Virus record (IMG/VR): IMGVR_UViG_3300006324_000008
Span: 1 to 20,126 of that record
Direction: 5' to 3' (one strand)
Source: a virus
DNA length: 20,126 nucleotides
In this document: positions 4,702 through 19,872 of the stretch, in pieces
Position numbering within the stretch: position 1 is the stretch's first letter
How the letters are laid out: every line of letters begins with the position of its first letter
Position numbers and translations under genes: made by a program
The notes under the pieces: model-generated
What the model was told of the DNA's origin: nothing
What the model saw: the letters and a program-made list of their open reading frames with translations, nothing else
Database searches by the model: none

Positions 4702-5658
4702 ATGGCAATATTCAGAGCAGGTAAACGTATCGGTAATATGGACATACGAGTTGGTCTACCGAGAGATAGGTCATTAGAAAACGTTGAAGGTGATTCAAGA
4801 ATAAAATCTGAGCAAAAAATTGGACCAAATGTAACTACATCTATTGGTAGATTTATGGCTCAAATAAATGAAGGTGAAGGTATTGCTAGAGCAAACAAAT
4901 TTTTAGTTAGATTTTATCCACCAAAAGATATGGTGTTTGATGGTGCAGATAATGAATTTTTTAACGGTGTGAAGATGAGATCCAATATAGAATTGATGTG
5001 TACATCTATAGTATTACCACATAGAGATACATTAACTACAAATTATGTGACTTATGGACCAGGTAGAAAAATGCCTTATGCATATAATTATGGTACAAGA
5101 GTTGAGTGTATGTTTATGGGAGATAAGTTTTTAAGACAAAGAGCTTGGTTTGAAATGTGGCAAGGTAAAATGCATAGTTTAAAAACACATAACTTACAAT
5201 ATTATGATAGTTATGCTGGTACTATGGAGATATTTCAGTTAGGATCATTTAGAGATTCAGACAAAAACGCAGGATATGATGATAACTATAGATTGACCTA
5301 TGGTGTGAGATTGCACGAAGTATATCCAGAAACAATAGGAGAAATACAATATCAATCAGTAGTAGATGATATGATACCTATGGACATACCTGTAAGTTTT
5401 GCATTTAGAACTTGGGAGAATATAACACTAGATGAATTAAGTGGTGTTGGTCACGCTAAAGCAACAGGTTGGATGCCAAACATAAAAGCTAGTAAGCAAT
5501 ATGGAGGTGCAATATTTGGTAAAGTATTAGGAAAAATGCCACCAGATATGCAAAGAGCAGTTAAAACTGTTGTTGGTAAAATTAAAAGAGATATACCAAT
5601 TGGTAGGAAGACTGGTGGTAGAGTGTTTCCACCATTTGAGATAAATAAGGTTAAATAA
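4702..5658 (+). CDS. 54: Baseplate/tail-tube junction protein, gp54-like
   Basis: In T4, gp54 binds gp48 on top of the baseplate hub and starts tail-tube polymerisation. This 318-residue protein (T4 gp54 has about 320) has the tube-protein layout. ANKFLVRFYPPKDM opens the first strand at about 65. Next come an ELMCTSIVLPHRDTLTTN loop and a YAYNYGTRVECMFMGDKFLRQRAWFEMW block. The sequence then continues to a long YGVRLHEVYPETIGEIQY...IPVSFAFRTWENI second half. The C-terminus is basic and Gly rich. It directly follows the 4147 gene and precedes gp26/gp51. Assignment to gp54 rather than another tube-like protein is from memory of marine homologues. Confidence 0.72.
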   Translation: MAIFRAGKRIGNMDIRVGLPRDRSLENVEGDSRIKSEQKIGPNVTTSIGRFMAQINEGEGIARANKFLVRFYPPKDMVFDGADNEFFNGVKMRSNIELMCTSIVLPHRDTLTTNYVTYGPGRKMPYAYNYGTRVECMFMGDKFLRQRAWFEMWQGKMHSLKTHNLQYYDSYAGTMEIFQLGSFRDSDKNAGYDDNYRLTYGVRLHEVYPETIGEIQYQSVVDDMIPMDIPVSFAFRTWENITLDELSGVGHAKATGWMPNIKASKQYGGAIFGKVLGKMPPDMQRAVKTVVGKIKRDIPIGRKTGGRVFPPFEINKVK

Positions 5659-5680
5659 TATATAATAAAAGGAGTAAATT

Positions 5681-6415
5681 ATGGCATTGCCTATAGTAGA
5701 AACAGCGACATTTGAATTGACATTACCATCTAAAGATGTAAAGGTTAAATTCAGACCTTTTCTTGTTAAAGAAGAAAAGATATTATTACAGGCATTGGAA
5801 TCTGGAGAAGATAAACAGATAAACAATGCATTGAAACAAATAGTACACTCTTGTACATTTGGAACTGTAGATATAGATACAATACCTCTATTTGATGTAG
5901 AGTATATATTTTTACAGATAAGAGCAAAGTCAGTTGGTGAAATAGTAAAACTTAAATTACTATGTCCAGATGACAATAAAACTTATGGTGAGGTTGAGGT
6001 AGATTTGTCTAAAGTGGAAGTACACGTAGAAGATAATCACTCTAACAACATTGTGGTTGATGAAGCGAAAAAGATTGGGATTATTATGAGTTATCCTACC
6101 ATTAATTCAACTAATACGATAGGTGCTAAGGGTATGAAAACCCAGCAGATGTTTGATTTGTTGGTAAGTACAATTCATCAAGTATATGAAGGAGATAAGA
6201 TACACTCTCCTACTGATTATACTAAAGAAGAAATGCATAAGTTTATAGAGAGTTTAGACAGTCAATCATATAAGAAAATCAATGAATTCTTTGATAGTAT
6301 GCCTAAATTAAAGCAAGAAGTAGAATTAGAGAATCCGAAGACGAAAATTAAGAGTAAAATTACGTTGGCTGGATTAACGGATTTTTTCGTATTGCCCTCT
6401 CTCACGAATCGTTAG
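5681..6415 (+). CDS. 26: Baseplate hub/assembly protein, gp26/gp51 type (short form)
   Basis: The ATG has AAAAGGAG six to seven bases upstream. The 244-residue zero-frame product shows the T4 baseplate-hub family pattern: LPSKDVKVKFRPFLVKEEKI at 14-33, then ALESGED, QIVHSC, and LFDVEYIFLQIRAKSVGEIVKLKL at about 69-92. In T4 the gp26 and gp51 proteins are needed to assemble the central hub. The last eight residues (VLPSLTNR) follow the slippery heptamer at 6382-6388. About a fraction of ribosomes should shift by -1 there and continue to 6585, making a 301-residue fusion. Which of the T4 names, gp26 or gp51, belongs to this half is uncertain. Confidence 0.82.
   Translation: MALPIVETATFELTLPSKDVKVKFRPFLVKEEKILLQALESGEDKQINNALKQIVHSCTFGTVDIDTIPLFDVEYIFLQIRAKSVGEIVKLKLLCPDDNKTYGEVEVDLSKVEVHVEDNHSNNIVVDEAKKIGIIMSYPTINSTNTIGAKGMKTQQMFDLLVSTIHQVYEGDKIHSPTDYTKEEMHKFIESLDSQSYKKINEFFDSMPKLKQEVELENPKTKIKSKITLAGLTDFFVLPSLTNR
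6382..6388 (+). other. Programmed -1 ribosomal frameshift site T TTT TTC
   Basis: The zero-frame codons GAT TTT TTC GTA become TTT TTT CGT in the -1 frame, so both tRNAs can re-pair, as required for an X XXY YYZ slippery site. In the zero frame translation stops nine codons later at TAG 6413-6415. The -1 frame continues in a family-like sequence to TAA 6583-6585. A weak hairpin (TCTCT 6398-6402 with AGAGA 6414-6418) lies 9 bases downstream and might assist. The arrangement resembles the tail-assembly chaperone frameshift common in tailed phages. Confidence 0.72.
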
Positions 6416-6588: not shown

Positions 6589-6912
6589 ATGGCAGATGAT
6601 TTAGTAAAAGTAAAAAAGACAACAGAAGAATACGAGTTGGCGAAGAGTGACCTTGTTCCTGATTCAGGTGAGGATGCTCCTACTTGGTATAACAAAACAG
6701 CAGGTCTATTAGATAAGTTTAGAGTCATACCTAGATTAGTAATGTTGGCATACATTTATGCCTTCTATAAATCAGTAACTTGGTTTATGACATTACCTGA
6801 TCCAACTAATTCACAAGCAATGTACATATCAACTATAGTTGGTGCTGGTGCTGCCTTCTTTGGATTATATGTTGGCAAACCTGGAACAAAATTACCGAAG
6901 AGTAAGAAATAA
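6589..6912 (+). CDS. Two-helix membrane protein, holin-like
   Basis: The 107-residue protein has an acidic N-terminus, a membrane helix at about 46-66 (VIPRLVMLAYIYAFYKSVTW), a short LPDPTNSQ turn and a second helix at about 77-95, ending with a basic tail. The RxIPRLVML...LPDPTN...GAGAAFFGLYVG pattern is a common uncharacterised type in T4-like marine phages. Its size and two helices would fit a holin, but this is inference. It sits between gp26/gp51 and another membrane protein in the tail operon. Confidence 0.7.
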   Translation: MADDLVKVKKTTEEYELAKSDLVPDSGEDAPTWYNKTAGLLDKFRVIPRLVMLAYIYAFYKSVTWFMTLPDPTNSQAMYISTIVGAGAAFFGLYVGKPGTKLPKSKK

Positions 6913-6920
6913 GGACATTT

Positions 6921-7367
6921 ATGGCAAAGAATAGATTAGATATATCAGACCAAACAGCAGTAAGTATGCCTATGAAGAACTTAATTGCTATAATCGGTGC
7001 CGTAGCCGTTGGCGTGTGGGCATATTTTGGCGTGATTGAGCGATTGAATAAATTGGAAACTAATACAACACTATTAGAAAAAGATTTAAACCAGGCAAGT
7101 GAAAGACTTTCTGGTGATATAGAGAAGAACAACGAATTTAGAATCAAATGGCCGAGAGGTGATTTAGGTTCACCACCTGCTGATTCCGAGCAATTTATGT
7201 TGATTGAATTTTTAAGTGGACAAGTAGAGTCCATACAGAAAGATTTACAAAATATGATGAACAATGCAGTTAACATTGAGAGATTGCAGAAAGATATGGA
7301 AAAGGTTCTAGCAGACGTAGAGAAATTAAAGGACAAAATAAGAAGTGTTAAAAACGGAGGAGAATAA
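6921..7367 (+). CDS. Single-pass membrane protein with coiled coil
   Basis: The 148-residue protein has a membrane helix at about 18-38 (PMKNLIAIIGAVAVGVWAYF). A helical heptad-like region follows (39-75), then a FRIKWPRGDLGSPPADSEQF linker at about 86-105, and a second long charged helix to the C-terminus. The family is seen in marine T4-like phages without a known role. Topology would put the coiled coil in the periplasm if the short N-terminus is cytoplasmic. That would resemble an inner-membrane spanin, but no partner is proven. AAGGACATTT precedes the ATG. Confidence 0.68.
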   Translation: MAKNRLDISDQTAVSMPMKNLIAIIGAVAVGVWAYFGVIERLNKLETNTTLLEKDLNQASERLSGDIEKNNEFRIKWPRGDLGSPPADSEQFMLIEFLSGQVESIQKDLQNMMNNAVNIERLQKDMEKVLADVEKLKDKIRSVKNGGE

Positions 7368-7370
7368 GAT

Positions 7371-7670
7371 ATGGACGCAACAACACTAGTTACCATCATC
7401 ACAATGTTTATTGTGACCAATACTTCAAGCGAATTTGTTAAGTATGATGGATTAATGGATTGTCTTAAAGACAAAAGAAAAATAGAAAAAATGAAAGATG
7501 GTCGTAGAGTTATTTGTGGTCCATCTATGGCAGAAATTGACGCAGATGGTAATATTGTCAGTATTAAAAACAAAATGCCTGACCAATCTGGTAGTTTAAA
7601 ACTAGGTGGTACAGCGAAGTCTTTAACAGAAAAGAAAAAAGAAAAAAAGACTAAAGTATTAACGCAATAG
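7371..7670 (+). CDS. Small exported or anchored protein with DCLKxKR motif
   Basis: The 99-residue protein has a weak hydrophobic N-terminus (LVTIITMFIV, 6-15), then DCLKDKRKIEK at 30-40, a second Cys at 49 (VICGP) and a Lys-rich C-terminus. The DCLK-x-KR-x-[IV]-EK motif recurs in the gene at 8724-9212 (residues 94-104), so the two are probably related, flanking the amino-acid binding protein. The start has GGAGGAGAATAAG upstream. Paired Cys suggest a periplasmic disulfide; function is unknown. Confidence 0.62.
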   Translation: MDATTLVTIITMFIVTNTSSEFVKYDGLMDCLKDKRKIEKMKDGRRVICGPSMAEIDADGNIVSIKNKMPDQSGSLKLGGTAKSLTEKKKEKKTKVLTQ

Positions 7671-7680
7671 GATAGATTAT

Positions 7681-8715
7681 ATGAAAAAAATATTAATGAG
7701 TTTATTAGTTGCTCTATTTTTGGTTGGTTGTAATACAACAAAGAGTATTAAAATAGAACAAGAAGTCGGTCTCTTAAAAACCGTACAAGAAAGAGGTTAT
7801 GTTATTTGTGGAGTTAATGCAGGTCTACCAGGATTTTCTGCTCAAGACGAGAGTGGAAACTGGAGTGGTTTAGATGTAGATTTCTGTAAGGCAGTAGCCG
7901 CTGGTATATTTGGTGACTCAAGTAAAGTAGAATTTATAGGATTAAATGCTAGTCAAAGATTTCCAACATTGGCGTCTGGCAATATTGATGTACTTGCAAG
8001 AAACACTACTTGGACAATTAGTCGTGATGTTAATTTAATGTTTGAATTTGCAGGTGTTAATTACTATGACGGCCAAGGATTTTTAATACCTACTGATTTG
8101 GATATTAAAAGTGCAACAGAATTAGATGGTGCGTTTGTATGTATTACAAAAGAAACAACATCTGAATTAAATTTAAATGATTATTTTGCAGAACAAAATA
8201 TGGCATATGTGCCAGTATATGTTGAAGGTAACAAAGACGCAAAGGCAAAACTATTTGCTGGTGATTGTGATGTATTCACAACAGACGCTTCTGGTTTAGC
8301 ATCCGCTAGAGCAGGTGCAGAAGACCCAAGTAAATGGATAGTATTACCAGAAATTATATCTAAAGAACCTTTAGGTCCACTTGTAAGACAAGGCGACCAA
8401 GAGTGGGAAGATATAGTTAGATGGACACATTTTATTATGATAAATGCTGAAGAGGCAGGTATTACAATGTACAATGTTGATTTAATGTTAACTTCAAAGA
8501 ATAAAGAAGTTAAAAGAATACTAGGTGTTGAAGGTTATATCGGTCCTATGTTAGGATTGGGTATGAAATTTGGTTATAATATTATCAAACAAGTAGGAAA
8601 CTATGGGGAATCATTTGAGAGAAATGTAGGACCTAATACTCCACTTGCATTAGAACGAGGATTAAATAATCTTTGGAAAAATGGTGGCGTAATGTACGTA
8701 CCACCAATTAGATAG
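7681..8715 (+). CDS. aapJ: General L-amino-acid ABC transporter substrate-binding lipoprotein, AapJ-like
   Basis: This is a full-length 344-residue periplasmic solute-binding protein of the general L-amino-acid (Aap) type. After the N-terminal signal come YVICGVNAGLPGFS (about 40-53), NWSGLDVDFCKAVAAGIFGD, SGNIDVLARNTTWTISRDVN, FAGVNYYDGQGF, DVFTTDASGLASARA and LPEIISKEPLGPLVRQGDQ. The C-terminus is IIKQVGNYGESFERNVGPNT through to PPIR, as in alphaproteobacterial AapJ. Unlike typical AapJ it has a lipobox, L14-V15-G16-C17, with Asn at +2, so it is probably a membrane-anchored lipoprotein. No permease or ATPase gene is nearby. No stop or deletion disturbs the fold, which argues for a selected function. 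It is embedded in the tail operon between two DCLKxKR proteins. Confidence 0.92.
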   Translation: MKKILMSLLVALFLVGCNTTKSIKIEQEVGLLKTVQERGYVICGVNAGLPGFSAQDESGNWSGLDVDFCKAVAAGIFGDSSKVEFIGLNASQRFPTLASGNIDVLARNTTWTISRDVNLMFEFAGVNYYDGQGFLIPTDLDIKSATELDGAFVCITKETTSELNLNDYFAEQNMAYVPVYVEGNKDAKAKLFAGDCDVFTTDASGLASARAGAEDPSKWIVLPEIISKEPLGPLVRQGDQEWEDIVRWTHFIMINAEEAGITMYNVDLMLTSKNKEVKRILGVEGYIGPMLGLGMKFGYNIIKQVGNYGESFERNVGPNTPLALERGLNNLWKNGGVMYVPPIR

Positions 8716-8723
8716 GGAGAACT

Positions 8724-9212
8724 ATGTTTAAAAAATTATACGATATGATAGGATTTAGAAACGGCGACACTAAAATGTTATTAAAGATTTTAGCAGGTTT
8801 GTTTTTGATTGCAATAGTATTTGGTGTAGTATTGCATAGTACAAGAGCCAATGCAGATTGTACAGGTTGCGGAGATGATGGACACCAAATTTGTCCAGTA
8901 GAAGGTGCAGACCACGAACACAATAAACCAGAAGTAGTATTTGCAGTATGCGTATTTGCAGATGGTTCATTAATTGACCATAAAGGTGCAAATAGTATGT
9001 CCGATTGCTTAAAGACTAAAAGAGAAGTAGAGAAAAAGTGGAGAAACAAATCTGAAGAAACAGATAGTGTAGAAATAAATGGTATTACTTACAAGATAGA
9101 CGGAGAAAGTTTAGCATTTATGTGTGATTTAGTTGACGCAAGAGTACATCATTATAATGATGGTACTTGGGAAATAGTAGAGATACTAGGCAAACATAAA
9201 AAGGACGAATAA
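8724..9212 (+). CDS. Exported Cys-rich protein with CxxC motif
   Basis: The 162-residue protein has a signal or anchor helix at 18-37 (MLLKILAGLFLIAIVFGVVL), followed by a possible cleavage site RANA-D at 41-45. The mature part begins with C46-TG-C49, H54, C57 and H64/H66, a pattern that could bind metal or form disulfides. DCLKTKREVEK at 94-104 matches the 7371-7670 protein, with a further Cys at 134. No enzyme family is recognised. It lies nine bases after the AapJ-like gene with GGGAGAACT before its ATG, and shares one base with the next gene. Confidence 0.66.
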   Translation: MFKKLYDMIGFRNGDTKMLLKILAGLFLIAIVFGVVLHSTRANADCTGCGDDGHQICPVEGADHEHNKPEVVFAVCVFADGSLIDHKGANSMSDCLKTKREVEKKWRNKSEETDSVEINGITYKIDGESLAFMCDLVDARVHHYNDGTWEIVEILGKHKKDE

Positions 9213-9352
9213 TGTTAAAAGAAATAAAAAGATGGTGTATTGAAGTTTCAAAAGAATTATGTAGTGAAACTGTTGATACAGCAGGAACCATTTGTGATAA
9301 AACAAAGAAAGCAAATGCTGACTTTGTTAAAGCAATAATGGATAGTATCTAA
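9212..9352 (+). CDS. 46-residue hypothetical protein
   Basis: ATG 9212 overlaps the preceding stop by one base (TAATG), and the frame ends at TAA 9350-9352. The product is a single amphipathic, charged helix-like sequence with Cys at 9, 17 and 28 and no membrane segment. The junction and the tight fit between neighbours support a real gene, although no family is recognised. The tape-measure-like gene follows after 11 bases. Confidence 0.6.
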   Translation: MLKEIKRWCIEVSKELCSETVDTAGTICDKTKKANADFVKAIMDSI

Positions 9353-9363
9353 TAGGATAATCA

Positions 9364-11310
9364 ATGGCAGATTCAGTAGTAGTTGCTGACAACGTATCGT
9401 TAATAGCAAATAATATACAATCTAAAGTAGGCGCAACATTGCTTGGTGGTAAAGCGATGGCAGCTGATACTGCTAAAGAGTCTGGTCCTGTTGATACTGT
9501 ATTAAAAGAACTTACAATATTACAATCAGCTGTTGTTGCCAAGTTGGGTGATGTTTGGGATACATTAAAAGCACAATTAGATTTTGTAAAAGAACAAGAC
9601 CGTAGATTTAGAGAACAACTAAAACCTGGTCAAAAACCAATACCACCAACACCTAAAGGTTTAGCAGGTGCTGTAAATACAACAGATGAAGGTGGATTTT
9701 TACAAACTTTGAAAAATGTGGTACCTGCAACATTATTAACATTGGGTGGATTGAGATTGTTTTTTTCAAAAGTATTTAAAGGTGCTCTTTGGGGATTGTT
9801 AGGTGCTATGGCAGGTTCAGCTTTAGTTAAAAAAATGTCCCTAGAAGGTGGTGCCGCCGAAGACGCAATTATGACAACGTTGCCTACTGTTGCCGCTTTG
9901 ATGGCAATGTTTAATGTTAAAAAGGCATTGTTATTAGCATTACCTGTTGTTGCTGCTCTTGGTATGAAGTCTATGGTAGATTGGTTAACAGGTGATAAAC
10001 TAGCTAGTGATGTATCAGGTTTTGATTGGGCAAGTGTTGCTATAACAGGTCCAGCAGCAGTAGCATTAGCGGCAGCATTTGGTGCCAAATTTACTATGGC
10101 AGGTGGTTTAGCATTAGGTACTGTTATGACAATAGGTATGCCAGTTTTGATAGCTGCTTCACTTGCAATTGCATTAGCGGCAGGTGCTGGTTTTATAGCC
10201 AGTAGCATCGGCAAAATTGAAAACACAATGCTTGAACATTTAGATGAGTCAACAGATTTATCGCAAAAAGAATTTGAAAGAAGACTAAACGAACATAGGT
10301 CTCATTTTATAGCACAAATAAGTCCAGGGATAGCTAAAATGTTTGGTATTGATTTAACTATGGGACAAGAGCTAGTTTTGGCGTCAGCAGCAGCAAAAAA
10401 GAAATCAAAATTAGAAGGTGAAAAAGGTAAGTTTAATATGCAAGAAGTTGATAAAATTACTAAATCTATTGACAAAACTACTAAAATGGATGATAAAACA
10501 TTAAGAATTCAATTAGATGATGAAGATAAGGCAGAAGAATTATTACAATTTCTTTATAATATGAAGATTGTAGTACAATCACAAAAATTAGGAAAAGAAA
10601 ATTCTAAACGATTGTGGCTAGACTTAATGGCTATGGACCAAAATATTCAGATGACGGCTAAAGATATGTTTAAAGAAAAGGATGACGCAGGAGAAGCTGG
10701 TTTCTTATCTGGCGAAAGTTATTTAAAGAGTATTAGTGAAGGAGGTCATAAAGATATGGGAGACTCTATGGAAAGTTGGGTAAACTTTCAAAACAAAGTA
10801 AGACCAATACAAGATAATATAAAAGCATTGGAAAGTGATCCAAGATTTATGGACTTACAAAAAATAGGTACTGCTGTTGAAATGGAACCAGAAGACGCAA
10901 AATATTGGAAGAAGCAGAAAAATGAGATTGAGAGAGAGAAAAAAAGATTGGCACAAAAATATAATGATTGGGTGTGGATGTACTCTGGTAGGGGACCAGA
11001 TAAAGCAGCTGGTGTTGATGTCCAAAAAATGATGGCTATGTATTCTACAGAAGAACAAAATAAAATGATGATTGACTCTGTAAACCAAAGTAAACTAGAT
11101 ATGAAAAATAAACACAAGCCATTGAAAGTTGGTATGATTTCAGAAAAAATGGCACCAGTTATTATTGATGGTTCTAAAAACAATCAACAAAATAATAGTT
11201 CAACTAATCTTTTTGAGTCTAACAATTATTCAGGCAATGGATCTGTTGATGGAGTACGATTAAGACACGCATTAATTGACCAAAGAACTTATAGTGGGAT
11301 GGGTTCATAA
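9364..11310 (+). CDS. Large tail protein, probably tape-measure-like
   Basis: This 648-residue protein is the longest in the window. Residues 1-110 are Ala-rich and helical with a Pro-rich linker (PGQKPIPPTP). Residues about 117-155, 171-201 and 222-282 are long hydrophobic Ala/Gly/Leu segments, and 290-560 is charged and helical. The last 60 residues are Asn/Ser rich and end in RQ/RT-type polar sequence. Hydrophobic central segments plus long helices, and a position after a frameshifting chaperone-like pair and before gp48, suit a tape measure protein (T4 gp29, about 590). The sequence itself does not prove this; a membrane-active ejected virion protein is the alternative. Confidence 0.55.
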   Translation: MADSVVVADNVSLIANNIQSKVGATLLGGKAMAADTAKESGPVDTVLKELTILQSAVVAKLGDVWDTLKAQLDFVKEQDRRFREQLKPGQKPIPPTPKGLAGAVNTTDEGGFLQTLKNVVPATLLTLGGLRLFFSKVFKGALWGLLGAMAGSALVKKMSLEGGAAEDAIMTTLPTVAALMAMFNVKKALLLALPVVAALGMKSMVDWLTGDKLASDVSGFDWASVAITGPAAVALAAAFGAKFTMAGGLALGTVMTIGMPVLIAASLAIALAAGAGFIASSIGKIENTMLEHLDESTDLSQKEFERRLNEHRSHFIAQISPGIAKMFGIDLTMGQELVLASAAAKKKSKLEGEKGKFNMQEVDKITKSIDKTTKMDDKTLRIQLDDEDKAEELLQFLYNMKIVVQSQKLGKENSKRLWLDLMAMDQNIQMTAKDMFKEKDDAGEAGFLSGESYLKSISEGGHKDMGDSMESWVNFQNKVRPIQDNIKALESDPRFMDLQKIGTAVEMEPEDAKYWKKQKNEIEREKKRLAQKYNDWVWMYSGRGPDKAAGVDVQKMMAMYSTEEQNKMMIDSVNQSKLDMKNKHKPLKVGMISEKMAPVIIDGSKNNQQNNSSTNLFESNNYSGNGSVDGVRLRHALIDQRTYSGMGS

Positions 11311-11317
11311 AATATTA

Positions 11318-11626
11318 ATGATAACAATATTAGAAAACGCAAAAAATAGATTAACAGAATTAACACAAACAAATAGAAAAGTATTTGTTAGATTATCTGT
11401 AAAGGGTGGTGGTTGTGCTGGGTTTGGGTATGATTGGTCGTTTGAAAATGAATCTAAACCAGAGGATATTCTTGTAGATAATATATTATTAGTAGATAAA
11501 CAATTTGAATTGTATTTATTAGGTATGCAATTAGATTATAAAAATGATTTATTTGGTTCTAATTTTGTATTCAACAACCCTAAAGCCAAATCCTCTTGTG
11601 GATGTGGCACATCATTTAGTATTTAA
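11318..11626 (+). CDS. A-type iron-sulfur cluster carrier (IscA/ErpA/HesB family)
   Basis: A-type carriers hold and pass on Fe-S clusters to target proteins. The 102-residue protein starts MITILENAKNRL like the family and keeps all three cluster ligands: C33 in VKGGGCAGFGYDW and C94/C96 in the C-terminal SSCGCGTSFSI. The ATG at 11318 is chosen over an in-frame upstream ATG at 11276, which would lie inside the previous gene. There is no clear ribosome binding site, so coupling to the gene ending eight bases before is likely. It converges on gp4 with an 11-base overlap. Whether it serves host metabolism or a phage iron protein is not known. Confidence 0.9.
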   Translation: MITILENAKNRLTELTQTNRKVFVRLSVKGGGCAGFGYDWSFENESKPEDILVDNILLVDKQFELYLLGMQLDYKNDLFGSNFVFNNPKAKSSCGCGTSFSI

Positions 11627-12050
11627 AACCTAAATTCTTTTCAGTAAGTAACTTAAACTCCATATTATTATTTACACAATATGCTTTGGCTGCTTGCCAT
11701 TTTGCTTTATTTTTGATATACTCATATGACTCACGCATATAAGATTTAGTTTTCTTTTTAGGTGGTTTAGGTTTTACTATTTGTCTTGATGGTTTAATTT
11801 CAATCATATACTTTTTATTCTTTGTTGTTTTAATGATGAAGTCTGGAAAGTATCTATGAAATTTCTTGTCTAATGGATTGTAGTATCTTACAGGCAATTC
11901 TTCACTTGCCCAAACTAATATATCAGGATTTTGGTCGCAATAGTGCATAAACCTACGCTCTAATAGTGACCTATACACTATCATATTAGGGTTGCCTACA
12001 TACTTTCTAGGGTACGTTGGTCTGTAAATTCCTTTGTAACTCTTTCTCAT
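11616..12050 (-). CDS. 4: Head completion protein, T4 gp4-like
   Basis: T4 gp4 acts after DNA packaging to finish the head before tail joining. The 144-residue protein (T4 about 150) shows the family pattern: KYVGNPNMIVYRSLLERRFM at 17-35, NPDILVWASEELPVRYYNP at 41-59 and KFHRYFPDFII at 63-73. It contains a PD-x13-E-x-K arrangement (P69-D70, E84, K86), as in PD-(D/E)xK nucleases, with E31 as a further candidate. Nuclease activity is inferred. It is the only T4-type gene here on the minus strand, has its own late promoter at 12083-12090, and overlaps the Fe-S carrier end by 11 bases. Confidence 0.88.
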   Translation of the reverse strand: MRKSYKGIYRPTYPRKYVGNPNMIVYRSLLERRFMHYCDQNPDILVWASEELPVRYYNPLDKKFHRYFPDFIIKTTKNKKYMIEIKPSRQIVKPKPPKKKTKSYMRESYEYIKNKAKWQAAKAYCVNNNMEFKLLTEKNLGFKY

Positions 12051-12067
12051 ATATTACCTATAAATCA

Positions 12068-12075
12068 TATAAATA
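12068..12075 (+). promoter_or_regulatory. Late promoter for gp48 operon
   Basis: Exact TATAAATA in the 52-base gap between gp4 and gp48, ending 27 bases before the gp48 ATG. An AAGGAT ribosome binding site at 12093-12098 lies between promoter and start, so this transcript has a normal short leader. Confidence 0.75.
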
Positions 12076-12082
12076 TTAGAAG

Positions 12083-12090
12083 TATTTATA
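12083..12090 (-). promoter_or_regulatory. Late promoter for gp4
   Basis: TATTTATA on the plus strand is an exact TATAAATA on the minus strand, 32 bases upstream of the gp4 start at 12050. It lies just seven bases from the oppositely directed promoter at 12068-12075, so the two transcripts overlap at their 5' ends. Confidence 0.7.
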
Positions 12091-12102
12091 ACAAGGATCA
12101 AA

Positions 12103-13365
12103 ATGGGAAACAATGTCAATATAAAGAGATTTATTAATAACGCAGTAAAAGGTGTTAAGAGTTTTGTGGTTAACAAGGCAATGAATAATCCAATGAATCC
12201 TTTATCACTTATTAACAGTTGGGGCAGTCAAAATGTAAAAACTAGCTCAAATGCCGCTGAGATACAGGCATTAATGAAGAAATCTCCATTTGAAAAAGAG
12301 AAAGATAGATACTCAAATTACAAAAAAACTGATCCTTTAGGATTCCAACACGTACAATATCCAGCAGATTTAACAGGCAATGAATTAGGTAATTGGATAC
12401 TATTCTTTACAATTAATTCCAATCTTCATAAAGGCAAAGAACTTGCTGCTGATTTACAATTGTCAAAAGGTATGGGTATGCCGAAAGCATCCCAAACAGA
12501 TATTTTGAGAAGGCAAAATATTGAGGAAAGTGGTACAGGTGGTGATATGGATTTAATGAGAGACCAATATAAATTAAAAGGAATTACTATACCTAAAATT
12601 TCAACTGACTATGAAGACTTTAATTCTGTATCAGCTGGCTATAAACCTAACGATATGGTGACTAGTGCAATTGCATTATATATGCCACCTGATATTAAAG
12701 TTAGTTATGGTGTGGAATGGGGTACAGAAGAAGCAATGTTAGCAGGAGATGTATCTAAACTTTGGTTAGATATAAAAGATTCTGAAGAAACTGGTGGAGA
12801 TTTAATTCAAAGTATGTTAGGACACGGAACTGGTATTGCTATTCAAAATTTGCAGAAATTACTTGGAAGTTTAGGTGCAGGTGCTGGGGTAGGTGATTGG
12901 GTTAAAATATTAGGTAAGAATATGGGAATGGCGGTTAATAACCATAGAGAACAAGTATTTGAACATCCTAATTTTAGAGAATTCTCATATCAATTTAAAT
13001 TCTTTCCTAGAAATAATGATGAAACTGAAAGAGTACAAAATATAATTACATTGTTTAAGTATCATATGCACCCTTGGAAAGAGGAAGATGAGTGGAAGGG
13101 ACGTATGTTTTTGTATCCGTCAGAATTTGAAATACATTATTTAAAAAATGATCCTCCAAGAGCTGGAGAGGATGATGTAGGTGGAATCAATGAGAAGCTA
13201 CATAAAATATCAAGATGTGCTTTAAAGAAATGTGATGTAAGTTATTCACCCGAAGGTGGTAATTTTAAAACGTTTCACGACCACGCACCAGTTACATATA
13301 CTATTGATTTAACATTTGTTGAATTAGAATTTATGACGAAACAGAAAATATTGAAAGGATTTTAA
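12103..13365 (+). CDS. 48: Baseplate tail-tube cap, gp48-like
   Basis: gp48 sits on the hub and, with gp54, nucleates the tail tube. The 420-residue protein (T4 gp48 has 364) has features of marine gp48: FQHVQYPADLTGNELGNWIL at about 76-95, a TSAIALYMPPDIKVSYGVEW strand at about 187-206, a Gly-rich hydrophobic middle, and FREFSYQFKFFPRNNDETER at about 289-308. It then has TLFKYHMHP...RMFLYPSEFEIHYL and a C-terminal VTYTIDLTFVELEFMTK strand. The first 70 residues are basic and variable. Its stop overlaps the gp53 ATG (TAATG). A divergent late promoter precedes it. Confidence 0.85.
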   Translation: MGNNVNIKRFINNAVKGVKSFVVNKAMNNPMNPLSLINSWGSQNVKTSSNAAEIQALMKKSPFEKEKDRYSNYKKTDPLGFQHVQYPADLTGNELGNWILFFTINSNLHKGKELAADLQLSKGMGMPKASQTDILRRQNIEESGTGGDMDLMRDQYKLKGITIPKISTDYEDFNSVSAGYKPNDMVTSAIALYMPPDIKVSYGVEWGTEEAMLAGDVSKLWLDIKDSEETGGDLIQSMLGHGTGIAIQNLQKLLGSLGAGAGVGDWVKILGKNMGMAVNNHREQVFEHPNFREFSYQFKFFPRNNDETERVQNIITLFKYHMHPWKEEDEWKGRMFLYPSEFEIHYLKNDPPRAGEDDVGGINEKLHKISRCALKKCDVSYSPEGGNFKTFHDHAPVTYTIDLTFVELEFMTKQKILKGF

Positions 13366-18958: not shown

Positions 18959-19144
18959 ATGTATGATGAAATGAATGGACTACAAGTACTATGGTACTTA
19001 TTAACAAATTGGGAAGAAGGAAAGGGTCTTTGGTTGATAATTGGCTTTGCAATGATTGTCTTATGTTTTTCAATATGGGCAGATAAACATTTTGATAATG
19101 ACGGATACAAACCTAAACCAAATGAATATGATTATTGGATATGA
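18959..19144 (+). CDS. Small single-pass membrane protein
   Basis: The 61-residue protein has one membrane helix at about 24-40 (LWLIIGFAMIVLCFSIW) with a charged C-terminal tail. AGGGAAG precedes the ATG by about six bases. Its TGA overlaps the next ATG (ATGA), so it is coupled to the oxygenase gene. Role unknown. Confidence 0.62.
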   Translation: MYDEMNGLQVLWYLLTNWEEGKGLWLIIGFAMIVLCFSIWADKHFDNDGYKPKPNEYDYWI

Positions 19145-19872
19145 TAGAACTAGATAACAAAAACACAAAGATAGAACAAGAACAAAAAGGTGGCAATTTA
19201 AATTTTGGTCCTTATGTGGCTATGTATTTTGCTCACGAAGAATTATTAGAAGGACTTGAGGACCGAGGTAATAAAAGTCGTGAAGGTTCGGGCAATAGTA
19301 ACTTAGCAGGTATAATGGAAGACCAACGAGGTTATACAAAAGAAGATAAAGAATGGTTTGTAAAAGAGTTTCAACGATACATAGATGATTATGTACAAAG
19401 TTCAGCGGAGTATATTGGAAAACCTTTTACAGAAGAACAGTTTTCAACTAAATTCACACTCATAGATTTATGGATTAATTATATGAAAGAGAACGAAGAT
19501 AATCCTGAACATACACACGGTGGTATGTTATCTTGGGTTATATTTTTAAAGACACCAGACTTAACAGAAGAAAGAAAAAAGTATAAAGGCAAGAGTTTTG
19601 GTCCTGGTGGAATAACGTTTCATTATGGTGAACACTCTAATCCAAAATGGACAGAACACTCCTATGGTTATGAACCCCAAAATGGTGGACTGTGGATATT
19701 TCCAGCACAATTAAGACATCAAGTAATTCCTTTTCATACACCAGGAACAAGAGTAAGTGTATCAGGTAATTTATTCTTTAATCATCCGAAAGATACATCA
19801 AAAGTGCTTCAAGACCCATTAGAAAGAAAATTGGAACAGTTTGCTCAGAAAGTAGCAGCAGAAACAGACTAG
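19141..19872 (+). CDS. Putative 2OG-Fe(II) oxygenase (PF13759-type)
   Basis: ATG 19141 overlaps the upstream TGA by four bases; an in-frame TTG at 19135 is less likely. The 243-residue protein ends in the recognisable block NPEHTHGGMLSWVIFLKTPD (121-140, His 124/126), GITFHYGEH, NGGLWIFPAQLRHQVIPF (His 193) and TRVSVSGNLFFN (Arg 204). This is the pattern of the 2OG-FeII_Oxy_5 family, common in marine viruses. Substrate is unknown; it differs from the oxygenase at 1661-2191. The hemF gene starts four bases after its stop. Confidence 0.8.
   Translation: MIELDNKNTKIEQEQKGGNLNFGPYVAMYFAHEELLEGLEDRGNKSREGSGNSNLAGIMEDQRGYTKEDKEWFVKEFQRYIDDYVQSSAEYIGKPFTEEQFSTKFTLIDLWINYMKENEDNPEHTHGGMLSWVIFLKTPDLTEERKKYKGKSFGPGGITFHYGEHSNPKWTEHSYGYEPQNGGLWIFPAQLRHQVIPFHTPGTRVSVSGNLFFNHPKDTSKVLQDPLERKLEQFAQKVAAETD

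Follow-up and report, generated by a model that had tools for sequence, protein, structure and literature searches.

Known systems and the novelty of the locus

Marine phages are known to carry solute-binding proteins (SBPs) such as PstS as well as transferred multi-gene units such as the curli genes (PMC6359870, PMC7029224, PMC9599517). Phage PstS is presumed to serve the permease of the host (PMC6359870), and a study on marine pelagimyophages mentions "substrate transport" genes without naming them (PMC7029224). Our literature search revealed neither aapJ nor any other amino-acid SBP in phages, nor an amino-acid SBP lipoprotein within a fixed unit that changes its genomic site. What appears new about the locus described here is an amino-acid SBP, predicted to be a lipoprotein, in such a fixed, site-changing unit, whereas phage PstS and transferred multi-gene units as such are known.

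Among the closest systems, alphaproteobacterial AapJ (PF00497; 4z9n) shares with the viral SBP full-length homology, the ligand signatures and a C-terminal extension to PPIR/PPFR, but the viral protein comes without aapQMP, has a lipobox or a Cys-less hydrophobic N-terminus and a longer N-terminal tether, and forms a clade of its own on a long stem. Like phage PstS in the cyanophages (and the annotated phosphate ABC transporter gene of phage Mosig), it is a binding protein that a T4-like marine phage encodes without its permease (PMC6359870), but it is a protein for amino acids and not for phosphate, is a predicted lipoprotein and is locked in a four-gene unit that changes place. The pelagiphage curli or type VIII secretion suite is likewise a host-modifying multi-gene unit common to pelagiphage lineages (PMC7029224, PMC9599517), and at one of its sites the SBP unit has a CsgG gene nearby; the two consist, however, of different genes, and the SBP unit occupies five defined sites in related myophages.

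The locus and its phage

The window, i.e., the entire 20,126-base IMG/VR record analysed, encodes T4-like proteins (DNA end protector, tail tube type protein, baseplate hub, gp48 tail tube cap and gp53), and the neighbours of the SBP gene are T4-like tail genes in a tail region of the pelagimyophage type. Its tube protein shares 48% identity with that of pelagimyophage Mosig and 37% with that of HTVC008M. The features of the locus, all on the + strand, are as follows.

6921..7367, +, gene 1 of the unit: 148 aa, N-terminal transmembrane (TM) segment and coiled coil, phrog_20984 (E = 1.3e-35)
7371..7670, +, gene 2: 99 aa, CLKxKR...C motif, invariantly placed between gene 1 and the SBP gene
7681..8715, +, AapJ-type SBP: 344 aa, complete (PF00497, match to 4z9n, tree)
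7720..7731, +, lipobox L-V-G-C, residues 14-17, with predicted lipidated Cys17 (sequence reading)
8724..9212, +, gene 4: 162 aa, predicted to be exported, with signal/anchor helix, Cys/His-rich linker and C-terminal CLKxKR domain; phrog_24646 (E = 1.3e-5); conserved 3' of the SBP gene
9212..9352, +, 46-aa ORF, in some contexts included in the shared block, with homology reaching about +1672 from the SBP start (L008, L011)

A complete AapJ-type binding protein

The SBP gene is an intact frame of 344 codons from its ATG to a PPIR-stop, and the initial annotation was right to describe an AapJ-type protein complete to its C-terminal PPIR. Membership in SBP family 3 and in AapJ is indicated by the match to PF00497 (SBP_bac_3; E = 1e-13, 51.7 bits against a gathering score of 26.4) together with a resemblance to AapJ that spans the whole mature length; among solved structures the closest is 4z9n, a periplasmic protein that binds amino acids (E = 8e-105 across residues 31-344). 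Cellular AapJ has 91 positions with an invariance of at least 95%, and 86 of these are identical in the virus, including R115, D202, T110, T159, T160 and E162. R115 and D202 are invariant in the virus and in 62/62 cellular sequences and align with Arg/Asp stretches of 2v25; we take them to be the two conserved residues with which family-3 binding proteins hold their ligand, Arg at the carboxylate and Asp at the amino group, so that the ligand is presumably an amino acid. By contrast, T161S and 16 further residues are fixed in the viral proteins and rare in cells.

The viral sequences are very uniform, and dN/dS is about 0.05-0.25 across viral pairs, a sign of purifying selection that argues against a decaying gene. 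As a host-derived metabolic gene under purifying selection in a bona fide phage genome it is a candidate phage auxiliary metabolic gene. Structure predictions for the SBP (pLDDT 41) and for gene 4 (pLDDT 58), built on shallow viral alignments, were too poor for use. In a single relative (L069:1208-2238) the frame is broken after 258 aa and continues in a new frame, probably by sequencing or assembly error.

The N-terminus (MKKILMSLLVALFLVGC) comprises an n-region, an h-region and the lipobox in agreement with the type II signal peptide pattern, and with its first 17 residues reading as a textbook lipoprotein signal the window SBP is predicted to be a lipoprotein. A lipobox is found in 0/19 SAR11 and 0/8 other alphaproteobacterial AapJ N-termini inspected, SAR11 AapJ having an ordinary signal peptide that ends in ANA or AHA followed by GT, or similar. 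The LVGC box is thus not standard in the host copy, and the claim that it sets this protein apart from ordinary AapJ stands for the window, but it does not extend to all viral copies. Most of these carry LVGC, LVSC, LIGC or LTGC, whereas a supported subclade (e.g., L039-L041, L047, L049, L053, L054, L067) has a Cys-less hydrophobic N-terminus, which might serve as an anchor or be cleaved off as a signal, and the early-branching L063 has a hydrophobic N-terminus without cysteine, too. Because of these Cys-less forms the lipobox is typical of the viral family but not essential to it. Lipoprotein signal peptidase is present in three of five SAR11 assemblies, all of which are partial.

A single viral clade next to SAR11 AapJ

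A scan of viral contigs yielded 91 relatives, 80 of which, 77-99% identical to the window protein, were kept; a wider profile scan recovered the same set and then fell to a single contig, L210, at 47% identity. The AapJ of L210 groups with Aurantimonadaceae, and this IMG/VR contig is probably cellular DNA classed as viral. In a protein tree of 98 sequences the viral SBPs form one clade (support 100) on a long stem of 0.8 changes per site, which sits beside SAR11 AapJ with moderate support (SH-aLRT 84) and away from Rhizobiales. The phylogeny proposed in the initial annotation as a check thus gives a single viral clade with SAR11 AapJ as its sister, and the nearest cellular genes are SAR11 aapJ at 58-62% identity. 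The best explanation of these sequence relationships is that the gene was acquired once, long ago, from an alphaproteobacterial aapJ, nearest to that of SAR11, and has since been retained in T4-like viruses of the pelagiphage type.

A fixed four-gene unit

Wherever a viral locus has sufficient flanking sequence, the order is gene 1 - gene 2 - SBP - gene 4 (6921-9212 in the window), so that the SBP is accompanied by three companion genes which the initial annotation had not mentioned. The C-terminal domain of gene 4 is related to a 70-aa protein of podophages (hhalign 97.3%, E = 2e-11), and gene 2 has a weak profile match to the same 70-aa family (77%, E = 2e-5). Homologues of gene 1 occur in 44 phage records, 39 of them named Pelagibacter phages, and are absent from the cultured myophages Mosig and HTVC008M. 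Because gene 1 ties the unit to Pelagibacter phages in this way, SAR11 is supported as the host of the SBP-bearing phages, to which the partner families as a whole, gene content and a low G+C also point.

In SAR11 podophages, genes of phrog_20984 and phrog_24646, homologous to genes 1 and 4 of the unit, lie next to each other without an SBP, e.g., gp54-gp55 of HTVC019P, gp53-gp54 of HTVC121P and gp15-gp16 of HTVC027P (beside an M15 peptidase), near terminase and lysozyme or M15 peptidase (endolysin) genes. In contrast to this pair, the unit has the CLKxKR protein doubled, with one copy bearing an export signal. In gene 4 (8724-9212) the part that joins signal helix and domain is variable and rich in Cys and His (CTGCGDDGHQICP...HEH); this stretch looks metal-binding and is missing in some relatives (L008, L029 and L035).

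An i-spanin has an N-terminal TM segment, a periplasmic coiled coil, an outer-membrane lipoprotein as partner and a holin/endolysin neighbourhood. In gene 1 a TM plus coiled-coil layout was read from the sequence, and in podophages it has neighbours on the lysis side, but it matches no spanin family, and the 70-aa partner has no lipobox. A spanin or holin (lysis) reading of the partners gained no support from family searches (Pfam, PHROG).

Five genomic sites and movement between them

Typing of the flanks in 81 viral sequences placed the unit at five sites, with one sequence untyped and one mixed (portal, protease and sheath were named by inspection of their sequences).

Site A: between gp26 and tape measure (40/81)
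Site B: between portal and prohead protease (12/81)
Site C: between DUF6267 plus a kinase-like gene and a nucleotidyltransferase-like gene (8/81)
Site D: near genes for adenylate cyclase and CsgG, or near other variable genes (14/81)
Site E: adjoining TctA (5/81)

Each of 12 records (12/12) has a single SBP copy, and alleles without the unit exist. In a 177-kb record (G001) with the unit at site A, the neighbours of sites C, D and B are contiguous, and in a 171-kb record (G002) with the unit at site D the same holds for sites A and C; the SBP is also missing at site A in Mosig and HTVC008M. Between records of different sites DNA homology extends from about -750 to +1530 relative to the SBP start, i.e., from the start of gene 1 to the stop of gene 4, with none beyond these edges except for a run-on through the 46-aa ORF in some. 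To fit the SBP DNA tree, the site must have changed at least 12 times. Assembly chimeras might account for individual near-identical pairs that differ in site, yet each site recurs across many assemblies. Since the unit moves among defined sites, the transfer history of an auxiliary gene unit becomes measurable.

The initial annotation had considered the position in the tail operon, between hub and tape-measure genes, as informative. As a clue to function this has to be rejected, the tail position being one of five sites, some of them beside non-structural, curli or TctA genes.

At site E a full-length TctA permease gene (PF01970, E = 2e-96) directly follows the unit (L060:11618-14580; also L056, L058, L059). 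In L059 and L060 a divergent secreted protein beside TctA is TctC-like by eye, and the two look like a putative phage-borne tripartite tricarboxylate transporter. Further TctA genes are found in G001 and G002.

In the same genome pairs, dS is 0.25-0.54 for the SBP gene against 0.55-1.40 for terminase, sheath and portal, with 1.25 for gp32 (window or G001 versus G002) and 1.04-1.21 for the capsid gene; fourfold-degenerate sites differ at 26-30% in the SBP gene against 43-55% in the core comparison genes. A recent transfer of the whole unit, which the low dS of the SBP gene might suggest, was rejected, as the companion genes are mostly intermediate to core-like (0.37-1.28, up to 2.65). Because the companion values lie mostly near those of the core, it is the SBP gene alone that has clearly been exchanged more recently; this gene appears to recombine most between phages, and relocation of the whole unit would be older or rarer. 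The codon bias of the SBP gene (ENC 34, against 33-48 for other window genes) is too ordinary to account fully for its low dS, although some synonymous constraint is possible.

Amino-acid uptake as the likeliest function

The claim that the SBP lacks a permease partner proved correct: no BPD_transp_1 (PF00528) permease was found in any of the 12 SBP-bearing phage records, including the 177-kb and 171-kb contigs, whereas 14/14 control genomes were positive. As linkage to AapQ, AapM and AapP is not seen in the virus, the protein is an AapJ homologue and not part of a complete Aap system. SAR11 itself has an aapJ-Q-M-P operon, with genes for two PF00528 permeases and an ATPase downstream of aapJ, so that a receiving permease exists in these bacteria.

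We consider uptake the likeliest function, and give a probability of about 0.5 to the reading that the viral SBP is a functional, tethered AapJ-family protein that feeds amino acids to the host AapQMP and so raises uptake during infection. The protein would be exported and tethered to the membrane, by a lipid in the subclade of the window and by a hydrophobic N-terminus (uncleaved or possibly cleaved) in the other, and would pass amino acids on to the AapQMP permease that the host itself makes. Uptake by the infected cell would then rise, as is thought for phosphate with cyanophage PstS, and the three companions, co-transmitted envelope proteins with relatives in a widespread gene pair of SAR11 phages, would probably act with the SBP. 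Also in favour of uptake are the TctA transporter gene (PF01970, E = 2e-96) that follows the unit at site E and the annotated phosphate ABC transporter gene of Mosig, the nearest isolate. On the other hand, the long stem of the clade (0.8 changes per site) leaves room for a changed function, T161S and the 16 further residues fixed in the virus are seldom seen in cells, three obligatory companions are unexpected for a plain uptake gene, the type of anchor varies within the viral family, and the sister position of SAR11 is moderately supported (SH-aLRT 84).

Amino acids are a main food of SAR11, and SAR11 transport proteins are among the most abundant proteins in the sea. Should the uptake reading be correct, the uptake of dissolved amino acids would differ between infected and healthy cells. 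The tie to a protein of known biochemistry also offers a first handle on the widespread SAR11-phage families phrog_20984 and phrog_24646.

Alternative functions

The main alternative, possible though rather unlikely in our view, is a phage-made periplasmic sensor complex in which the captured SBP reads how much amino acid is available and its partners, the membrane coiled-coil protein and the CLKxKR proteins, relay the signal, e.g., to lysis timing. To a similarly tentative degree, the mobile unit might be a complex with the SBP as nutrient receptor for envelope partners, in nutrient-gated lysis or envelope remodelling, and not a simple uptake booster. The same three partners always accompany the SBP, tethering fits a complex, and the partner pair would itself be an old envelope or lysis-associated module of SAR11 phages, occurring without the SBP near terminase and lysozyme or M15 peptidase genes in podophages, gene 1 having the inner-membrane layout of an i-spanin on reading its sequence. 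However, the partners have no Pfam or PHROG link to lysis, the absence of gene 1 from Mosig and HTVC008M implies that it is not essential for lysis, and nearly all AapJ-invariant residues are kept, as expected if a permease partner still matters.

It is unlikely that the tethered SBP serves superinfection exclusion or receptor masking by obstructing a transporter or surface site of the host that other phages use. The SBP gene moves between phages as an exclusion gene might, and lipoprotein exclusion factors such as T5 Llp are a known kind and provide a precedent, but a decoy would not need the ligand-site residues and the 86/91 family-invariant residues that are kept, and the very uniform sequence is unlike that of arms-race proteins. 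Family searches of the SBP and the window proteins gave no match to a known exclusion lipoprotein, and we know of no SAR11 phage receptor in this system.

Being tethered, divergent and without a permease, the SBP might also compete with host AapJ and redirect or block uptake (dominant-negative), which we regard as very unlikely, as depriving the host of amino acids while virions are being made is of no obvious benefit and the retained family residues suggest normal docking. Still less credible is a virion component, i.e., a tail or baseplate accessory protein: the gp26/tape measure site accounts for 40/81 sequences and another site has portal and prohead protease genes on its two sides, but sites C, D and E lie among non-structural genes, the SBP carries a signal peptide and lipobox, and the relatives Mosig, HTVC008M and G002 lack it at site A. 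Host DNA misassembled into a viral contig, considered in the initial annotation and favoured by nothing except the metabolic family of the SBP, is ruled out by a monophyletic viral clade separate from all cellular copies and by the phage genes that flank the SBP on either side in about 80 contigs, which come from many metagenomes.

Other features of the window

The tail module is strongly mosaic. When the window (4702-6415 and 9364-13365) is compared with G001, identity is 99% for gp32, 94% for an FeS protein and 95-99% for the unit, but 53% for the tube protein, 74% for gp26, 32% for the tape measure and 41% for gp48. A small protein with the pattern GGGCAGFGY...SSCGCGTSF (11276-11626) overlaps the 3' end of the tape-measure gene, is kept in relatives and is apparently an A-type iron-sulfur carrier (IscA/ErpA-like). 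A two-TM protein at site A (6589-6912; phrog_10198), also present in Mosig and G002 and located downstream of the unit in L018, L049 and L053, has a holin-like layout, and no family match supports a holin. Finally, the tail region is bordered by a thymidylate synthase of the ThyX type and by proteins resembling 2OG-Fe(II) oxygenases (364-978, 1622-2191 and 19135-19872), the last of these matching phrog_81 and the first two being identified by inspection.
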